A stretch of 64,000 nucleotides of DNA from Lysobacter capsici (GTDB lineage Bacteria; Pseudomonadota; Gammaproteobacteria; Xanthomonadales; Xanthomonadaceae), in NCBI RefSeq assembly GCF_014779555.2, contig NZ_CP094357.1, forward strand, positions 5,208,001-5,272,000. Reading direction: 5' to 3'. Below are positions 13,939 through 58,991 of the stretch, piece after piece. The notes beneath the pieces were generated by a model. It saw nothing but the letters and a program-made list of their open reading frames with translations, did not search any database and was not told the DNA's origin. Positions within the stretch are counted from its first letter, which is position 1. Each line of letters begins with the position of its first letter. Position numbers and translations under genes: made by a program.

Positions 13939-14090
13939 CCCTCTCCCGCTTGCGGGAGAGGGTTAGGGTGAGGGTGCGAAGCGTAGGTTGTAACGCTGCT
14001 GCGTATCAGGCGACGCGGCCTGCGATGTTCCCTCACCCCAACCCCTCTCAGCTCTGCACTCCCTATGGTCGCCGCAAGCGGGAGAGGGGC
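13939..14090. repeat. Dispersed palindromic element, family A (GGGAGAGGG / GTGAGGG)
   Basis: About 152 bp between the SDR/DoxX gene start and the hslU stop. The left half is CCCTCTCCCGC-TT-GCGGGAGAGGG followed by TTAGGGTGAGGG; the right half is CCCTCACCCCAACCCCTCTC, a 30-nt interruption, then GCAAGCGGGAGAGGGG. The two halves are inverted copies. Other copies lie at 50234-50385 and 55933-56083, and an inside-out version lies within the gene at 30909-33938. Confidence 0.85.
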
Positions 14091-20854: not shown

Positions 20855-21086
20855 GCCGGAAGTATGCAGCCGTGCGGTGGGTGGGAAACACATGGCGGGT
20901 GTCGGCGCGGTTTCAAGCGCCGTGGGTGGGCGGGTGGTGGGCTGTCTTGATCTGAGCGGAAAACGCCGGGGCTGGAGTTCTGCTCAAACAGACCCCGTTG
21001 TTTCGCTTCCCTTTCCGATGAACCAACCCCGACCTCTTCCGCCCGTCGATAAATCCAGAACATCCGCGAATATCCGTGATGCCCGT

Positions 21087-22080
21087 TGTAGGAGCGGCGT
21101 AAGCCGCGACCGCGGGATCGCGTCCACGCCGCAACTTACGCCGTAGTTGCGTTGTCCCGGTCGCGGCTTACGCCGCTCCTACAGGCAGGCATCGAAGCGT
21201 GCGTGTTGGTTCGCGAATATCCGTGATGCCCCTGTAGGAGCGGCGTAAGCCGCGACCGCGGGATCGCATCCACGCCGCAACTCGCGCCGTAGTTGCGTTG
21301 TCCCGGTCGCGGCTTACGCCGCTCCTACAGGTAGGCATCGAAGCGTGCGTGTTGACGGGACAGCGGTATGGGTTACGGCCGTCCTCGCTCCAGGAGTCTG
21401 CTTCGCTTTCCGATACGCCAAACCTCGGCGTCTTCCACTTATCGATAAGCCGGAAACATTCGCGAATATCCGTGTTGCCCCATGTAGGAGCGGCGTAAGC
21501 CGCGACCGCGGGATCGCACCCACTCCGCAACTCGCGCCGCAGTTGCGTTGTCCCGGTCGCGGCTTACGCCGCTCCTACAGGTAGGCATCGAAGCGTGCGT
21601 GTTGGCGGGACAGCGGCATGGGTGGGCGGTCGCCTTCGCTCCAGGAGATTGCGTCGCTTTCCGATACGCCAAACCTCGGCGTCTTCCACTTATCGATAAG
21701 CCGGAAACATTCGCGAATATCCGCGATGCCCCTGTAGGAGCGGCGTAAGCCGCGACCGCGGGATCGCATCCACGCCGCAACTCACGCCGTAGTCGCGGTG
21801 TCCCGGTCGCGGCTTACGCCGCTCCTACAGGTAGGCATCGAAGCGTGCGTGTTGGCGGGACAGCGGCATGGGTTACGGCCGTCCTCGCTCCAGGAGCTTG
21901 CTTCGCTTTCCGATACGCCAAACCTCGGCGTCTTGCACTTATCGATAAGTCGGAAACATTCGCGAATATCCGTGTCGCCCCTGTAGGAGCGGCGTAAGCC
22001 GCGACCGCGGGATCGCACCCACTCCGCAACTCGCGCCGCAGTTGCGTTGTCCCGGTCGCGGCTTGCGCCGCTCCTACAGG
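21087..22080. repeat. Tandem array (249-250 bp period) of large hairpin elements, family B
   Basis: TGTAGGAGCGGCGTAAGCC starts at 21087, 21233, 21483, 21733 and 21982, giving spacings of 146, 250, 250 and 249 bp. Each copy is paired about 70-100 bp later with its inverse GGCTTACGCCGCTCCTACA, so every unit holds a stem of about 30 bp arms. Between hairpins lies a second conserved segment containing TTCGCTTTCCGATACGCC, TTATCGATAAG and TTCGCGAATATCCG. A degenerate spacer copy occurs at 21005-21086. No gene is seen from 20855 to 22268 (1.4 kb). The hairpin is also found singly at 37026, 50064 and 58293. Confidence 0.92.
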
Positions 22081-22194
22081 TAGGCATCGTGGCTTGCGCG
22101 AGTCTCTACCGGAGCGGTTTCAGTCCCGACGCCGTTCGCCCAGCCCAGGCCGAACCTGCTTGTCGCACCGGGCACAGCCCTTGCGCAACCCCCA

Positions 22195-22222
22195 GAAACG
22201 AACAAGCCCGGCATAAGCCGGG
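22195..22222 (-). terminator. Possible terminator after the exported oligopeptidase gene
   Basis: On the minus strand, 47 bp after the stop at 22269, CCCGGC-TTAT-GCCGGG forms a stem followed by CTTGTTCGTTT, a partly T-rich stretch. The T-run is weak, so this is a moderate call. Confidence 0.5.
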
Positions 22223-22268
22223 TCTGTCCGATCGCCGCGCCGTTACCGGCGCGACCGCGCGCATCGAC

Positions 22269-30568: not shown

Positions 30569-30784
30569 TCAGCCGGTGATCGCGCCGCGCATCGCCAGGC
30601 TCAGCTGCTGGCCCACGTATACCGCCGCGATGCCCAGCGCCGCCGCGACGGCCGCGCCCAGGTACCAGCGATTGAAGCCCGGCCGGCGCGCGCGCTGGCG
30701 GTAGCCGACCCAGGCCGACCCGGCCGCGACGGCGAACAGTCCGCCGTGCGAGGCGAACACAAACAGCGTCCACAGCAGTTCCAT
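30569..30784 (-). CDS. Small membrane protein of unknown function
   Basis: The 71-aa product begins MELLWTLFVFASHGGLF and has two hydrophobic helices (about residues 2-22 and 42-60) separated by a positive loop (RQRARRPG). No family is recognised. It is convergent with the exported protein and divergent from the soeA-like gene, with a 124 bp gap to the latter. The start at 30784 is chosen because a longer reading is polar and would cross the soeA promoter region. Confidence 0.6.
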   Translation of the reverse strand: MELLWTLFVFASHGGLFAVAAGSAWVGYRQRARRPGFNRWYLGAAVAAALGIAAVYVGQQLSLAMRGAITG

Positions 30785-30908: not shown

Positions 30909-33900
30909 ATGCGAGAGCACGCTCCCTCCGAGCCAGCCATCGACCTGTCGCCCTCGCCCGGCGATGAGGTCAAGACCACGACCTGTTACATGTGCGCATG
31001 CCGATGCGGCATCAAGGTCTGGCTGGCCGACGGCAAGATCCGTTACATCCAGGGCAATCCCGATCATCCGGTCAACCAGGGCGTGCTGTGCGCCAAGGGA
31101 TCGGCCGGGATCATGCAGCACTATTCGCCGGCGCGGCTGAGCAAGCCTCTATTGCGCGTGGGCGAACGCGGCAAGGGCGAGTTCCGCGAAATCGAATGGG
31201 ACGAAGCGTTGGGTATCGCCGCCGGCTGGCTGGGGCCGATCCGCGAACGCAATCCCGACGAACTGGCGTTCTTCACCGGCCGCGATCAGTCGCAGGCGCT
31301 GACCGGCTGGTGGGCGCAGCAGTTCGGCACGGTCAACTATGCGGCGCACGGCGGGTTCTGCTCGGTCAACATGGCCGCGGGCGGGTTGTACACGCTGGGC
31401 GGCTCGTTCTGGGAATTCGGCGAACCCGACTGGGAGCATTCGCGTTATCTGATGCTGTGGGGCGTGGCTGAGGATCACGACTCCAATCCGATCAAGCTTG
31501 GCCTGGGCAAGTTGAAGGCGCGCGGCGCGAAGATCGTCGCGGTCAATCCGGTGCGCAGCGGCTATGGCGCGATCGCCGACGAGTGGATCGGGATCCGGCC
31601 GGGGACCGATGGCTTGTTCGCGTTCGCGCTGATCCACGAGTTGTTGAAGGCCGACCGGATCGATCTGGATTATCTGGTGCGCTATGCGAATGCGCATTGG
31701 CTGGTGATCCGCAATCCGGGCGGCGCGGATGATGGGTTGTTCGCGCGCGATGAGTCGGGGCGTGCGTTGTGTTGGGTTGGCGGTCCTCACCCTGGCCCTC
31801 TCCCGCGAGCGGGAGAGGGAACACCGACGAAGCGATCGGATGCGACGCATGCATCCGAAGATTCGCCCCACCACGTCGCTTCGAATACCACCGAAGAGCT
31901 CCCTCTCCCGCCCGAGGGAGAGGGCCGGGGTGAGGGCCGCGCCTGTCCCGCCGACACCATCGACATCTCCCCCGCCGTCGTAGGCGAATACACCCTGCCC
32001 GACGGCCGCCGCGCCGTGCCGGTGTTCCATCTGCTGGTCGAACGCTACCTCGACCCGCAATACGCGCCCGACGCGGTCAGCGAACGCTGCGGCATTCCCG
32101 CCGATACCATCCGCCGCATCGCTCGCGAACTCGCGCAGGCCGCGTTCGACAATCCGGTCAAACTGCCGATCGCCTGGACCGATGCGCATGGCCGCGAACA
32201 CAGCGAGATGGTCGGCCGTCCGGTCAGCATGCACGCGATGCGCGGGATCAGCGCGCACAGCAACGGCTTCCACACCTGCCGCGCGCTGCACTTGCTGCAG
32301 CTGCTGCTCGGCGCGGTCGACACGCCCGGTTCGTTCCGTTATCAGCCGCCGTTCCCCAAGCCACTCCCGCCGCCGAACCGCCCCGGAAAACAGCGCCAGG
32401 CCAATGGCGCGCTGGACGCCGCCCCGCTCGGTTTCGTCCACGGCCCCGAAGACCTCGTCGTCGACGAACACGGCCAGCCGCGCCGCATCGATCACGCGTT
32501 CTCCTGGGCCTATCCGCTGTCGGCGCACGGCATGATGCACACGGTGATCCGCAACGCCTGGGCCGGCGATCCGTACAAGATCGACACGCTGATGATGTTC
32601 ATGGCCAACATGAGCTGGAACTCGGCGATGAATACCGGCGAGACCATGCATTGGCTCACCGATCGCGGCGAGGACGGCGAGTACCGCATCCCCCACATCA
32701 TCTACGCCGATGCCTACGCCTCGGAGATGACCGCGTACGCCGATCTGGTCCTGCCCGACACGACCTATCTGGAACGCTTCGACGCGATCAGCCTGCTGGA
32801 CCGCCCGATCTCGGATGCGGATTCGGCTTGCGATGCGATACGCCATCCCATCGTGGATTCCACCACGCAACGCCTGCATGCCGGCGACGAGGCGCGCGAC
32901 GTGCGCGGTTTCCAGTCCGTTCTGCTCGACATCGGCGCACGCCTCGGCTTGCCCGGCATGGTGCTCGACGATGGCAGCCCGCGCTATCGCGATTACGCCG
33001 ACTACATCGTGCGTCACGAACGCGCGCCCGGGGTCGGCCTGCTCGCCGGCTGGCGCGGCGAACACGGCGAACTCGAAGCCAAGGGCCCGCCCAACCCGGA
33101 GCAACTGCAACGCTACATCGACAACGGCGGCTTCTGGCGCAGCCATGTGCCCGAGTCGGCGCGCTATTTCAAGATGGCCAACCGCGGCTATCTGGACTGG
33201 GCGCAGAAGATGGGCTTTCTCGGCCACGCCGATCCGATCGTGCTGCAGCTGTATTCCGAGACGATGCAGAAGTTCCGCCTCGCCGCGCAGGGCCACGGCG
33301 ACAAGCAGCCGCCGGCCGAACACCGCGAAAGAGTCGCGACCTATTTCGATCCGTTGCCGATCTGGTACGAACCGTTCGAAGGCGCGCAGATCGCCGACGG
33401 CGCCACGCGTTTCCCGCTCAGCGCGGTGACCCAGCGGCCGATGTTCATGTACCACGCCTGGGGTTCGCAGAACGCCTGGCTGCGGCAGATCAGCGCGCGC
33501 AATTTCCTCTACCTGCATCCCGACACCGGCGCGCGCCACGGCATCGCCGACGAAGACTGGATCGCGGTGCAATCGCATCACGGCCGCATCCAGGTGCAGG
33601 CGAAATTCGCCGCCAACGTGCAGCCCGACACGGTCTGGACCTGGAACGCGATCGGCAAGCGCCGCGGCGCCTGGCGCTTGAACAAGGACGCGCCGGAAAG
33701 CCGCAAGGGGTTCTTGCTCAATCATCTGATTTCCGACATCACGCCGAAGGGCGATTACGCCAACGCCGATCCGGTCACCGGCCAGGCGGCCTGGTTCGAT
33801 CTGCGCGTGTCGATCCGCAGACTCGATACGGCCGACGATACGCAGGCCGTCTCGCAGCCGCAGTTCGCCGCGCTGTCGTTCGAACCCGCCGACGACCGGC

Positions 33901-33938
33901 CCTTGCGCTACGGCGCGCAGTTCAGGAAAAACCGATGA
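30909..33938 (+). CDS. soeA: Molybdopterin oxidoreductase catalytic subunit, SoeA-like, with in-frame repeat insertion
   Basis: The 1009-aa product is a DMSO-reductase-superfamily catalytic subunit. An N-terminal 4Fe-4S site is formed by C26-x2-C29-x3-C33 in TCYMCACRCG and a fourth Cys in GVLCAKGSAG. Bis-MGD-binding blocks follow, including FFTGRDQSQALTGWW and GGFCSVNMAAG. There is no Tat signal, so it is probably cytoplasmic. With the 4Fe-4S and NrfD-type genes downstream it resembles sulfite dehydrogenase SoeABC, which oxidises sulfite to sulfate and feeds quinone; substrate is inferred, and thiosulfate/polysulfide reductase remains possible. Residues about 293-343 are coded by a repeat element inserted at 31785-31936 with the frame kept. 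The start codon at 30909 is 124 bp from the divergent small gene. Confidence 0.85.
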   Translation: MREHAPSEPAIDLSPSPGDEVKTTTCYMCACRCGIKVWLADGKIRYIQGNPDHPVNQGVLCAKGSAGIMQHYSPARLSKPLLRVGERGKGEFREIEWDEALGIAAGWLGPIRERNPDELAFFTGRDQSQALTGWWAQQFGTVNYAAHGGFCSVNMAAGGLYTLGGSFWEFGEPDWEHSRYLMLWGVAEDHDSNPIKLGLGKLKARGAKIVAVNPVRSGYGAIADEWIGIRPGTDGLFAFALIHELLKADRIDLDYLVRYANAHWLVIRNPGGADDGLFARDESGRALCWVGGPHPGPLPRAGEGTPTKRSDATHASEDSPHHVASNTTEELPLPPEGEGRGEGRACPADTIDISPAVVGEYTLPDGRRAVPVFHLLVERYLDPQYAPDAVSERCGIPADTIRRIARELAQAAFDNPVKLPIAWTDAHGREHSEMVGRPVSMHAMRGISAHSNGFHTCRALHLLQLLLGAVDTPGSFRYQPPFPKPLPPPNRPGKQRQANGALDAAPLGFVHGPEDLVVDEHGQPRRIDHAFSWAYPLSAHGMMHTVIRNAWAGDPYKIDTLMMFMANMSWNSAMNTGETMHWLTDRGEDGEYRIPHIIYADAYASEMTAYADLVLPDTTYLERFDAISLLDRPISDADSACDAIRHPIVDSTTQRLHAGDEARDVRGFQSVLLDIGARLGLPGMVLDDGSPRYRDYADYIVRHERAPGVGLLAGWRGEHGELEAKGPPNPEQLQRYIDNGGFWRSHVPESARYFKMANRGYLDWAQKMGFLGHADPIVLQLYSETMQKFRLAAQGHGDKQPPAEHRERVATYFDPLPIWYEPFEGAQIADGATRFPLSAVTQRPMFMYHAWGSQNAWLRQISARNFLYLHPDTGARHGIADEDWIAVQSHHGRIQVQAKFAANVQPDTVWTWNAIGKRRGAWRLNKDAPESRKGFLLNHLISDITPKGDYANADPVTGQAAWFDLRVSIRRLDTADDTQAVSQPQFAALSFEPADDRPLRYGAQFRKNR
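31785..31936. repeat. Family A palindromic element inside the soeA-like gene (translated)
   Basis: A 152-bp element with terminal inverted repeats CCTCACCCTGGCCCTCTCCC and GGGAGAGGGCCGGGGTGAGG (with the stem CCCTCTCCCGC-GA-GCGGGAGAGGG inside) lies in the coding sequence. It is read in frame as a Pro/Gly/Glu-rich segment. Compared with intergenic copies the two halves are in the opposite order. The reading frame is open through it. Confidence 0.85.
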
Positions 33939-34020: not shown

Positions 34021-34242
34021 ATGAAACCGGCGCGCGTATTCGCCGGCCTGTTGTGCATCGCGCTGAGCTTCGGCCTGGTGCTGTTGCTGGGCCTGGGCAT
34101 GTTCGATCCGACCCGCGACGCGGCCGCGAGCGCCAACGGATCGGTGACGCCGGTGCTGATCGCGCTGATGCCGAGCGTGAGCGTCGGCCTGGCCGTGTTC
34201 GCCTTGGGCGTGTGGTTGATTTCGACCGGGAGAAAACGATGA
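34021..34242 (+). CDS. Small two-helix membrane protein in the soe-like operon
   Basis: The 73-aa product begins MKPARVFAGLLC and has two hydrophobic helices (about residues 6-28 and 47-66). No family is recognised. Its stop overlaps the start of the 4Fe-4S gene by 4 nt (ATGA), and it lies between the catalytic and electron-transfer subunit genes, so it is probably translated with them. A longer start at 33943 adds a Cys/His-rich leader (MHRQPMFLPSSHC) with no support. Confidence 0.65.
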   Translation: MKPARVFAGLLCIALSFGLVLLLGLGMFDPTRDAAASANGSVTPVLIALMPSVSVGLAVFALGVWLISTGRKR

Positions 34243-35048
34243 CCGGTCTGCCGCCGCCGTCGAAAAAGAAACTGGGTCTGGTGATCGACCTGGACACCTG
34301 CGTGGGCTGCCATGCCTGCGCGGTGAGCTGCAAGGAATGGAACGCCGGCGGTTTCTCCGCGCCGTTGACCGATGAGCAGCCTTACGGCAAGGACCCGTCG
34401 GGGGTCTGGTTCAATCGCGTCCACAGCTACGAAGTCGAAGCCACCGCCGTCGCCGCCTTGCCGATCGCCGACCCGGTGCGCGGTTGCGGCAGCGCCGCGG
34501 CCGTCGACACCGCACCGCAACCGGCGATGACCCTGCACTTCCCGCGTTCGTGCCTGCATTGCGAACAACCGGCCTGCGTGACCGTGTGCCCGACCGGCGC
34601 CAGCTACAAGCGCGCCGAGGACGGCATCGTGCTGGTCGACGAGGACAAGTGCATCGGCTGCAAGCTGTGCTCCTGGGCCTGCCCGTACGGCGCGCGCGAG
34701 TACAGCCCGGTCGAGGGCGTGATGAAGAAATGCACGCTGTGCATCGACCGCATCTACAACGAGAACCTTGAGGAATCCGAACGCCAGCCGGCCTGCGTGC
34801 AGGCCTGCCCGACCCGCGCGCGCCATTTCGGCGACCTCGCCGATCCGGAATCGAAGGTGTCCAAGCTGGTCGCCGAACGCGGCGGCGTCGACCTGATGGC
34901 CTCGCTGGGTTACCAGCCGACCAACAAATACCTGCCGCCGCGCGCGCGCCGCGCCGGCGCGGCGGAACCGGCGCCGGCCGCCGAAACGCTGGACACCCAG
35001 GCCTTGCCGACGGTGCTGCGCTGGCTGGATCGGGTGTTGTCGCGATGA
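34239..35048 (+). CDS. soeB: 4Fe-4S dicluster electron-transfer subunit, SoeB-like
   Basis: The 269-aa product has four cysteine groups typical of DmsB/NrfC-type subunits: TCVGCHACAVSC, CLHCEQPACVTVC, CIGCKLCSWAC, and CTLCIDR with CVQACPTRA, so four 4Fe-4S clusters are expected. It passes electrons from the catalytic subunit to the membrane subunit. Residues before position 20 are short and lack a signal, so it is cytoplasmic. A long loop (about residues 35-90, VEATAVAALPIADPVRG) is unusual in length. The start at 34239 is set by a 4 nt overlap with the small membrane gene. Confidence 0.9.
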   Translation: MTGLPPPSKKKLGLVIDLDTCVGCHACAVSCKEWNAGGFSAPLTDEQPYGKDPSGVWFNRVHSYEVEATAVAALPIADPVRGCGSAAAVDTAPQPAMTLHFPRSCLHCEQPACVTVCPTGASYKRAEDGIVLVDEDKCIGCKLCSWACPYGAREYSPVEGVMKKCTLCIDRIYNENLEESERQPACVQACPTRARHFGDLADPESKVSKLVAERGGVDLMASLGYQPTNKYLPPRARRAGAAEPAPAAETLDTQALPTVLRWLDRVLSR

Positions 35049-35156
35049 TGCGTTTTCGCGGTATGCCGCGGCTGCGCGATAGCGTGGGTGGCGAGTGCGT
35101 CCGCGCGCGCGCCTGCGCGAATCTTATTTCCCTTCGTTTCGCTCGCGCAGGCTGAT

Positions 35157-36104
35157 ATGCATCCGGCGTTCTCGGTCATTTTCTTCACCACCTTGTCGGG
35201 CGCCGGGTATGGGCTGATGGCGTGGGTCGGCGCGATCGCCTTCTACCATTACGCCGGCGGATCGCCGGTCGAGCCCATGCGCGTATTGGCGTTCGCGATG
35301 CTGGTGGCCTTGATCCTGGTCACCGTCGGCCTGCTCAGCTCGACCCTGCATCTGGGCAAACCGCTGCGCGCCTGGCGCGCGTTCTCGCAATGGCGGACTT
35401 CATGGCTGTCGCGCGAGGGCGTGATGGCGATCGTCGCGTACCTGCCCGCATTGGGCTTGCTGCTGGGCGTCGTGCGTAAAAGCGGCGCGGCGATGCCGAT
35501 GTTGTTGTCGGCGGCGGTGGTCGTGTGCGCGCTGCTCACCGTGGCCTGCACAGCGATGATCTACGCATCGCTCAAGCCGATTCCGGCGTGGCGGCATTGG
35601 CTGGTGGTGCCGGGCTATCTAGCCTTCGCCCTGCTCAGCGGCGCGGCCTTGCTGGCCGCGCTGCCCGGCGCGCCTGCGGTCGGGCGCTCGGCGATGACGG
35701 CGGTGGTGCTGCTCGCTCCGCTGACCGCGCTGCTCAAGCTGATGTATTGGCGCGCGATCGACCGCACGCCCTTGCCGGTCACTCGCGGCGAAGCGGTCGG
35801 CCTGCCCGACCGCGAATTGTCGGTATTCGAGCGCCCGCACACCGAAGAAAATTACCTGACCCGCGAAATGGGCTATGTGCTGGCGCGCAAGCACGCACGC
35901 AAGCTGCGCCTGATCGCGCTGGCGCTGTTCGCGCTGCTGCCGCTGGCCGGCATGTTCGTCGCCGGCCTGATGCAGGTAACCGGGTCGCCTGAGACGGCCG
36001 CGGTCGTGACCGCGCTGAGCGCGTTGTCGGTATTGCTGGGCGCCGTGGTCGAGCGCTGGCTGTTCTTCGCCCAGGCCAAGCATCTGGTCACGCTGTACTA
36101 CTGA
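35157..36104 (+). CDS. soeC: NrfD/DmsC-type membrane anchor subunit, SoeC-like
   Basis: The 315-aa product has eight or so membrane helices (roughly residues 5-30, 43-63, 88-105, 115-135, 145-165, 178-195, 258-280 and 285-305) and matches the DmsC family, with SSTLHLGKPLRAWRAFSQWRTSWLSREG (in parts: HLGKPLRAW; SWLSREG) as the conserved core. It should anchor the other subunits and exchange electrons with quinone. It is 108 bp after the 4Fe-4S gene. The ATG at 35157 starts MHPAFSVIFFTTL, the family N-terminus. Confidence 0.9.
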   Translation: MHPAFSVIFFTTLSGAGYGLMAWVGAIAFYHYAGGSPVEPMRVLAFAMLVALILVTVGLLSSTLHLGKPLRAWRAFSQWRTSWLSREGVMAIVAYLPALGLLLGVVRKSGAAMPMLLSAAVVVCALLTVACTAMIYASLKPIPAWRHWLVVPGYLAFALLSGAALLAALPGAPAVGRSAMTAVVLLAPLTALLKLMYWRAIDRTPLPVTRGEAVGLPDRELSVFERPHTEENYLTREMGYVLARKHARKLRLIALALFALLPLAGMFVAGLMQVTGSPETAAVVTALSALSVLLGAVVERWLFFAQAKHLVTLYY

Positions 36105-38581: not shown

Positions 38582-38597
38582 GTAGGAAGGTTGCGCC

Positions 38598-38740
38598 GAT
38601 TCCCGATTCCCGATTCCCGATTCCCGATTCCCGACTCCCGACTCCCGATTCCCGATTCCCGATTCCCGATTCCCAAATCTCGAATCTCGAATCCCGAATC
38701 CCGAATCCCGAATCCCGAATCCCGAATCCCGAATCCCGAA
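38598..38740. repeat. Heptanucleotide repeat tract (GATTCCC, then GAATCCC)
   Basis: Starting at 38598 the unit GATTCCC (with some GACTCCC) repeats about twelve times to 38674; after a short AAATCTCGAATCTC break the unit GAATCCC repeats about eight times to 38740, 3 bp before the algR-type stop at 38744. Such tracts can vary in copy number by slippage. Confidence 0.9.
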
Positions 38741-38743
38741 CAT

Positions 38744-39478
38744 TCAAAGATGCTTGAGCGTCTCCCGCAACGCAGCCACACAGCGCCGGCTGACCTCCAG
38801 CGGCTGCTTGCCATGCCGCAGCACCGCCTGCACGTGGCCTTCGGCGTTGCGCTTGAGTTCGACGATCTCGTGCCGGGCCACCAGGCAGTTGCGGTGGATG
38901 CGCACGAAACGTTCGCCGAATTCGTCCTCCAGCGATTTCAGCGATTCCTCGATCAGGTCCTCGCCACGGGCGTGATGGACGATCACGTACTTCTCTTCGG
39001 CGTGCAGGTAATGCACGTCGTCGATCGGGATCAGGCGCAGGCTGCCGCGCAGGCGCGCGCACAGGTGACTGCGGATCTGGCCCGGCGCGGTCTCGCCGCC
39101 GTCGTGGCGTTCGCGGCCGGCGGCGAAGGTGCGCACGCGCTCGAGCGCGGCGTCCAGGCGCTCGGCCCGCACCGGCTTGACCAGGTAGTCGATCGCCTCG
39201 GCGTCGAACGCCGACAGCGCATGCGCGTCGTAGGCGGTGCAGAACACCACCGCCGGGCGCGGGTCGAACGCGGCCAGGTGGCGCGCGGCCTCCAGGCCGT
39301 CGATGCCGGGCATGGCGATGTCCAGCAGCACCAGATCCGGCCGGTGTTCGGCGCAGGCGTGCAGCGCGTGCTGGCCGTCGACCGCTTCGGCGACGATCTC
39401 CACATCCGGCCGCAAGGCCAGCAGCGCGCGCAGTCGCTCGCGCGCCAACGGTTCGTCGTCAGCGATCACCACTCTCAT
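38744..39478 (-). CDS. LytTR-family response regulator, AlgR-like
   Basis: The 244-aa product has a receiver domain (VVIADDEPLARERLR, phosphoacceptor Asp53 in LVLLDIAMPG, conserved Lys in LVKPVRAE) and a C-terminal LytTR DNA-binding domain (about residues 138-240, with HYLHAEEKYVIVHH, RIHRNCLVA). It should bind DNA when phosphorylated by the kinase encoded next to it. The ATG at 39478 has GAGG 8 nt upstream and gives a normal N-terminus; an ATG at 39502 that overlaps the kinase stop (ATGA) is the alternative. It is followed by the heptamer tract. Confidence 0.9.
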   Translation of the reverse strand: MRVVIADDEPLARERLRALLALRPDVEIVAEAVDGQHALHACAEHRPDLVLLDIAMPGIDGLEAARHLAAFDPRPAVVFCTAYDAHALSAFDAEAIDYLVKPVRAERLDAALERVRTFAAGRERHDGGETAPGQIRSHLCARLRGSLRLIPIDDVHYLHAEEKYVIVHHARGEDLIEESLKSLEDEFGERFVRIHRNCLVARHEIVELKRNAEGHVQAVLRHGKQPLEVSRRCVAALRETLKHL

Positions 39479-50233: not shown

Positions 50234-50385
50234 CCCTCTCCCGCTCGCGGGAGAGGGCTAGGGTGAGGGGATGAGCGCCGCAGGCGCGAATGCTGTTGCA
50301 GGTACCTTCAACGTAGTCGCGACCGTAGCAATACCTTGCCGCGAAACCCTCACCCCAACCCCTCTCCCGCAAGCGGGAGAGGGGC
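50234..50385. repeat. Dispersed palindromic element, family A
   Basis: CCCTCTCCCGC-TC-GCGGGAGAGGG, then CTAGGGTGAGGG at the left; CCCTCACCCCAACCCCTCTC and CGCAAGCGGGAGAGGGGC at the right. The middle contains ATGAGCGCCGCAGGCGCG. It is very close to the copy at 55933-56083. It lies in the same gene-free gap (50032-50424). Confidence 0.88.
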
Positions 50386-55932: not shown

Positions 55933-56083
55933 CCCTCTCCCGCTTGCGGGAGAGGGCTAGGGTGAGGGAATGAGCGCCGAAGGCGCGAATGCCGCTGCAT
56001 TCGCGTTTTGATGCTTTAGCCCTTGCAGCAACACCTCGCCTCGCCCCTCACCCCAACCCCGCTCCCGCACGCGGGAGAGGGGC
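55933..56083. repeat. Dispersed palindromic element, family A
   Basis: CCCTCTCCCGC-TT-GCGGGAGAGGG, CTAGGGTGAGGG at the left; CCCTCACCCCAACCCCGCTC and CGCACGCGGGAGAGGGGC at the right. The internal ATGAGCGCCGAAGGCGCG is shared with the copy at 50234-50385. It fills most of the convergent gap 55856-56291. Confidence 0.88.
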
Positions 56084-58437: not shown

Positions 58438-58991
58438 CCAGCGCTGCGAAGCTCGGAACTCGCGAGAACAAAAGCACACCCGTAGGGCGGCGCACATGGA
58501 TGTGCGCCGTGCGCCACCGGGACAGGATGTCCCGTGTGGCGCATGCCCGCGTCTGCACCGCACGCGCGGGCCTTTGATTCACAAAAAAGCATTTTTCTTT
58601 GGTTACCTTTCTTTTGTTGCTTTAGACAAAAGAAAGTGACCCGCCGCTTCAGCGGCGGAACGCTTTTGATCCTGCTTGCAGCTTTAAAGGCTTTAAAGGC
58701 TTCAAAGCTTCAAAGCTTTGAAGCTTTGAAGCTCTAGAGCTTTTGAAGCCAGAGGCAAGATCAACAGCTTTCGTCCGCAAGCGGCCGAGTTACTTTCTTT
58801 TGTCAAAAGCGACAAAAGAAAGGTAACCAAAGAAAAACGCTTTTCTTTGAATCAAGGGCCCGCAAGTGCGGTGCTTGCGCAGGCATTCGCCACACGGGAC
58901 ATCCTTGTCCCGGTGGCGCACGGCGTGCATCCTGCACGCCGCCCTTCGGGTGTCCCGTTGCTAACGCGAGTTCCAAGCGTCGCAGCGCTGG
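58438..58991. repeat. Long imperfect inverted repeat, family F, with AAGCTT-rich centre
   Basis: Left arm (58438-58673) begins CCAGCGCTGCGAAGCTCGG and right arm (58748-58991) ends with the inverse, GCGTCGCAGCGCTGG. Both carry CACACCCG-type words, GGGACA-GGATGTCCCG, AAAGAAAGGTAACCAAAG/CTTTGGTTACCTTTCTTT and CCGCTT. The centre (58674-58747) consists of AAGCTT- and CTTTGAAG-type repeats. It holds no open frame worth calling a gene. It would fold into a stem of about 235 bp. Confidence 0.85.

Follow-up and report, generated by a model that had tools for sequence, protein, structure and literature searches.

Palindromic repeats that lie within protein-coding genes are known from Rickettsia, whose palindromic elements (RPEs) were reported by Ogata 2000 and Abergel 2006, as cited in PMC2229807. 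That article describes RPEs as palindromic repeats of 105–146 bp inserted in frame inside conserved genes, and a guanylate kinase that carries an RPE as still active, with an altered substrate affinity. A second group of elements, the REPs, is likewise described inside ORFs, as intragenic singletons and dimers, in PMC3733652, which also gives recB of two Xanthomonas species as a gene with different REPs at about one site. Among titles and abstract openings, mostly of articles outside subscription journals, we found none on repeats in the loop described here.

The locus studied here lies in a stretch of 64,000 nucleotides (the window) of the Lysobacter capsici genome (6.24 Mb, one contig). It contains a palindromic insertion, in frame, in a conserved gene, and in this it works like the RPEs as PMC2229807 describes them, a likeness by description and no claim to membership. 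Unlike in the RPE case as described there, the repeat and the host are different and several repeat families fill one loop repeatedly. In-frame palindromes are already known; the new part is the recurrent colonisation of a single loop by several families.

The host gene is a single open frame encoding 1009 amino acids; the frame reaches upstream to position 30783, and the start codon at 30909 is putative. Like SoeA, PsrA and PhsA of the DMSO reductase family, the protein combines an Fe4S4 domain with molybdenum-cofactor domains, and B and C subunit genes follow downstream, giving the architecture of the sulfite-oxidising SoeABC complex, a molybdenum catalytic subunit with an Fe4S4 domain, an iron–sulfur subunit and a membrane anchor (Table 1). 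The closest solved chain by sequence is that of a thiosulfate/polysulfide reductase (2vpw_A), and the closest named locus among the matches listed is from Lysobacter. Unlike the named enzymes, however, the protein falls below every NCBIfam cut-off (top score, PhsA, 209.8 bits against a cut-off of 694), and the 24 NCBIfam families listed for it include no SoeA model. The name SoeA, proposed in the first-pass annotation, is confirmed by no model, and we call the gene SoeA-like.

Table 1. Coordinates of the SoeA-like locus and of family A repeats in the window
Feature	Position	Strand	Remark
Intergenic family A single unit	13940..13974		
Molybdopterin oxidoreductase catalytic subunit, SoeA/PsrA-like	30909..33938	+	Pfam Molybdopterin, Molybdop_Fe4S4, Molydop_binding
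Family A palindromic repeat dimer, tail-hairpin ... hairpin-tail, in frame	31785..31936	+	
Left repeat unit	31785..31819	+	CCTCACCC tail, then CCCTCTCCCGC..GCGGGAGAGGG hairpin
Spacer between units	31820..31899	+	alignment by eye
Right repeat unit	about 31900..31936	+	hairpin, then GGGTGAGGG tail
Second variable loop, residues 821-835	33369..33413	+	no repeat in this genome; repeat insertions in relatives
Iron-sulfur B subunit	34239..35048	+	Fer4_11
DmsC-type membrane anchor subunit	35088..36104	+	Pfam DmsC
Intergenic family A dimer, hairpin-tail ... tail-hairpin	50235..50383		
Intergenic family A dimer, hairpin-tail ... tail-hairpin	55934..56081		

The element spans 152 bases and consists of two palindromic units in inverted order, each composed of a hairpin (CTCTCCCGC) and a tail (CCTCACCC/GGGTGAGG). 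Judging from the open frame, the left unit would be translated as PHPGPLPRAGEG and the right unit as LPLPPEGEGRGEG. The spacer between them is hypervariable across relatives and keeps a CCGAAGA-like 3' end (alignment, by eye). What the first-pass annotation had proposed, a family A repeat inside the coding sequence with the frame intact on both sides, proved correct, as did its description of about 50 extra residues rich in Pro, Gly and Glu: the loop has 58 residues here, 10 of them Pro, 9 Gly and 7 Glu, versus 7–15 residues in 60 of 100 aligned relatives, that is, about 43–51 extra. By gene calls, the other tailed family A copies in the window are intergenic, again as proposed. The two halves were also said to be in the opposite order to the intergenic copies. 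This holds within the window, where both intergenic dimers read hairpin-tail..tail-hairpin, but the order is not unique to the SoeA-like gene, an idea that we rejected because a dimer in MurL (below) and the intergenic dimer L149 share it.

The whole genome gave 112 raw matches to the element (both strands, itself included). Together with the window, the stretches around these matches contain 45 family A groups, three of which are bare hairpins without a tail. Other repeats are also present in the window, namely a 7-bp CCGATTC/CCGAATC unit in tandem copies (38582-38756), with a similar unit found by eye, inverted, in the MetH loops of both G008 and G014, and a long inverted repeat (58524-58905) with 120-nt arms of 88% complementarity, 142 nt apart.

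The distribution of the insertion was analysed in an alignment of the window protein with 20 loci of its own genus (one of them, L009, is the copy in the window itself) and the best 80 of 589 others. L009 was left out of the loop-length, tree, insertion and motif counts, which leaves 100 rows, and identical genes were counted once in motif scans. The loop that receives the element (loop 1, between LCW289 and ADTIDISP348) has at least 16 residues in 40 rows and 7–15 residues in the other 60, so relatives lacking the segment do exist. Within the genus, the full insert (52–70 aa) is found in 11 of 20 genomes, while seven have a loop of 7–15 aa and two retain remnants, one of 10 aa (G008) and one of 23 aa in which left and right units are fused (G013). 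These remnants show that the insert shrinks in frame. The SoeA insert is therefore neither recent nor private: most of the genus has it, with decay, and a unique event in this genome was rejected. The spacers diverge strongly but have a common 3' end, from which we infer one ancestral insertion followed by losses rather than several insertions at one place. Inspection by eye of the one close filled/short pair, L018 and L026 (dS 0.19), revealed at most a 2-bp GG at the junction and no longer target-site duplication, and the short state of L026 may be a deletion, not an empty site.

Similar Pro/Gly/Glu loops in relatives had been named in advance as grounds for abandoning the insertion idea. Such loops are indeed present, but the insertion stands, because many of them are repeat insertions themselves, partly of other families. 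Across relatives, mostly Lysobacterales, loop 1 contains CTCTCCC-type and CCCTTCGC-type palindromes, GTAG-tagged palindromes in Arenimonas and CGTC-tagged ones in Dokdonella. Arenimonas donghaensis and its relatives have a GTGG/GTAG-tagged inverted dimer, with the tagged stems (TGTAGGAG/TGTGGGAG, the latter a one-base variant of the GTAG tag), the inverted pairs and the high copy number that characterise GTAG REPs. Raw matches to this repeat (both strands) numbered 82, 80 and 82 in three carrier genomes; elsewhere among the seven genomes searched there were 9 and 4 in two and 0 in two. A survey by eye of 25 Arenimonas loci, some in pieces or cut, revealed both the GTAG type (G020, G021, G022 and G036, with short remnants in G025 and G039 and, in G046, a copy at the end of a contig) and the CTCTCCC type (G024, G048 and G051). 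The Dokdonella loop has CGTC-tagged arms, and its insert matched 11 times in G032 and twice in G033 at E 1e-6, own loop included; since the two matches include the loop itself, multicopy support for L114 is weak, and the hairpin test was not significant for Dokdonella L110 and L114.

Hairpins of the form CCCTTCGC..GCGAAGGG occur in loop 1 of L045, L052, L078 and L080. This repeat has 17, 17 and 18 genome matches for L045, L078 and L080, respectively, one for L061 and, for L052, two that both lie inside the loop itself. Other rows have short-loop CTCTCCC hairpins in loop 1, and the CTCTCCC repeat matched in seven of eight genomes, the exception being that of L056; for L085, one of its two matches is its own loop. 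Loop-1 repeats are multicopy in most of the carrier genomes tested. Hairpins beyond those of shuffled sequences (p < 0.05) were detected in 23 of 37 distinct long loops, the other 14 having no significant hairpin, and for 7 of the 40 long-loop rows (at least 16 aa) no repeat class could be assigned.

Repeats are concentrated at two places in the gene. A scan of 94 distinct genes, with a motif set composed after inspecting the inserts, placed repeats in loop 1 of 29 genes, 12 of them own-genus genes sharing it by descent, and in a second loop (residues 818-838 scanned) of 6; outside the two loops, none of the 94 genes had a repeat motif over 254,319 bases, a count that excludes the CGTC pattern as non-specific, since it matches the coding stretch between the loops in 27 of 94 genes. 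Insertions of at least 20 aa affect loop 1 in 28 of 100 rows; the only other places with such insertions are the N-terminus (22 and 1 rows) and the surroundings of residues 821-835 (1, 7 and 6 rows). Loop 2 inserts in relatives are largely repeat-like. This loop is filled with repeats in L056, L058, L060, L070, L078, L094, L098, L115 and L117, among them a CGTC-type palindrome in L070 and, in L094, a unit like TTCGACAGGCTCACCACGAACGGGA repeated in tandem.

A tree of the 100 rows, built without the loop by FastTree only, requires at least 25 changes between filled and short states, and at least 22 changes by repeat class with the 7 unclassified rows left out; 26 of its 91 inner branches are drawn open, and both counts merge gain and loss. 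We judge that loop 1 has received about ten or more separate arrivals. The structure alignment leaves out L106 and L115, which have stop codons in the match range, and alignments A1 and A2 hold 55 and 40 rows.

Two outcomes had been envisaged for the enzyme: a permissive surface site with activity retained, or an allele without function whose frame stays open by chance. That 50 additional residues should often harm an enzyme is a general expectation, and it speaks for the second. Nevertheless, 13 of 14 within-genus pairs have a dN/dS of 0.03-0.17 outside the loop, the matches to the gene have no internal stop in any of the 20 genus genomes, and the adjoining B and C subunit genes have intact domains, all of which makes a dead allele hardly credible. 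The near-identical pair L018/L019 has a dN/dS of 0.32, on 12 changes (6 synonymous, 6 other). Inside the loop, dN is 0.13-0.33 versus a dS of 0.16-0.55 in seven pairs with at least 50 loop codons, a range that leaves out L015/L017 and L018/L019 (4 and 3 changes). Given this purifying selection, the enzyme probably works.

Modelling supports the permissive site of the first outcome. In the AlphaFold2 model, the insert lies between strands 286-291 and 343-347 with a pLDDT below 50, whereas in that of the short-loop relative L087 a turn of 4 residues links strands 279-283 and 288-291, with ten-residue pLDDT means of 91-95; overall confidence is moderate (mean pLDDT 70.8 and 69.7). The models thus place the insert at the tip of a beta-hairpin, as a predicted disordered extension, and the 60 short loops agree with a permissive site.

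Family A is found well inside three recognised genes of this genome, those for the SoeA-like protein, MurL and MetH (activation domain); a further place (L125) is ambiguous, and predicted gene edges are overlapped in four more. MurL, the UDP-MurNAc-L-Ala-L-Glu epimerase (L138, G000:C1:1555885-1557364; NCBIfam MurL, 805.6 bits), contains an in-frame family A dimer that is present in 5 of 20 genus genomes and reduced to a remnant in one, the other 14 having a loop of 7-8 aa. MurL reads the left unit in a different frame, as PSPQPSP against PHPGPLP in the SoeA-like protein, which indicates that no single peptide is being kept. The loop of MetH (L144, G000:C1:3201501-3203736; genus loci L193-L212) has the dimer in two of 20 genomes (G000 and G003), is interrupted by N in one (G010), contains other inverted repeats in three (G008, G014 and G019; by eye), measures 3-9 aa in seven and has 27-29 aa, unclassed, in seven.

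As regards known repeat systems, the Arenimonas and Dokdonella inserts resemble the GTAG and CGTC superfamilies of intragenic REPs described in PMC3733652. Family A of the window is different in carrying neither tag: no GTAG or CGTC was found at the stem foot of its units (CCTCACCC-nnn-CCCTCTCCCGC..GCGGGAGAGGG). A RAYT partner for family A was rejected, because none of the three Y1_Tnp genes of the genome is flanked by it in a motif scan of ~1.5 kb on each side. One of the three, L119 (a Y1 transposase gene at G000:C1:646643-646972), is RAYT-like and has inverted pairs of GTAG-type palindromes on both sides, the motif of which also matches arrays at window positions 21025-22230.

The recurrence in loop 1 could also be due to insertion bias rather than tolerance, the DNA of the loop or its resident repeats attracting further copies through nesting or through recombination with other copies. 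Several units do lie within the loop of L080 and of L078, and the stem arms stay near consensus while the spacer drifts, a pattern that exchange with other copies would give. However, the single loop is occupied by several unrelated families, the insertion points, judged by eye, lie anywhere between 1 and about 8 codons downstream of LCW, which argues against a fixed target, and the second loop and other genes behave likewise; we regard active targeting as quite improbable. Alternatively, the hairpins could function within the coding sequence, through mRNA structure, stability or translational pausing, and be kept at the nucleic-acid level. Four-fold sites differ at 4 of 67 positions in the arms versus 335 of 1886 elsewhere in the gene (Fisher p 0.008, for four pairs chosen after the data were seen), and the arms keep A/T-ending codons (GC3 0.58-0.71 versus 0.82-0.90). 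In addition, changes on one side of the right hairpin of L018 are matched on the other (by eye), and the left hairpin persists in both the SoeA-like gene and MurL, which read it in different frames. But a hairpin of use to its gene sits poorly with the 7 of 20 genus genomes that lack the long insert and the two with only remnants, two L018 pairs have no slowdown (6/18 and 5/19), the MurL counts are small, and exchange with other copies predicts the identical pattern. Such a function seems unlikely to us, and we treat the slow four-fold change in the arms as a lead, for which exchange and hairpin function are both possible sources.

A broader variant is that a few loops in Lysobacterales enzymes of housekeeping or respiration (the MurL loop, the MetH loop and both loops of the SoeA-like subunit) are standing landing sites, to which several unrelated families are recruited repeatedly and whose palindromes are both translated and preserved as DNA or RNA. 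This is speculative and rather doubtful; if true, such loops would be a path by which selfish DNA repeatedly becomes protein, beyond tolerated accident.

We consider it likely that a dispersed palindromic dimer entered the SoeA-like gene in frame long ago and is translated as a disordered extension of a beta-hairpin tip in a working enzyme. Dispersed repeats would insert more or less anywhere, and nearly all in-gene copies would be purged; those in loop 1, loop 2 and the MurL and MetH loops would survive where length and frame allow. A permissive loop may then act as a sink, which fills repeatedly, whose insertions drift and which shrinks by in-frame deletion. In this genome, 109 of 132 frames are open in the 22 one-unit family A groups and 50 of 120 in the 20 two-unit groups (in-gene ones included), so that landing with an open frame is not rare, length requirement aside.

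In-frame palindromic repeats have so far been reported mostly as scattered cases. Here, a single beta-hairpin tip is found across many lineages with a short loop, filled, shrunken or with nested repeats. This natural series can be used to measure how selfish DNA becomes protein sequence and what loops tolerate, and it can also show which of the two is kept, the palindrome in the DNA or the peptide.
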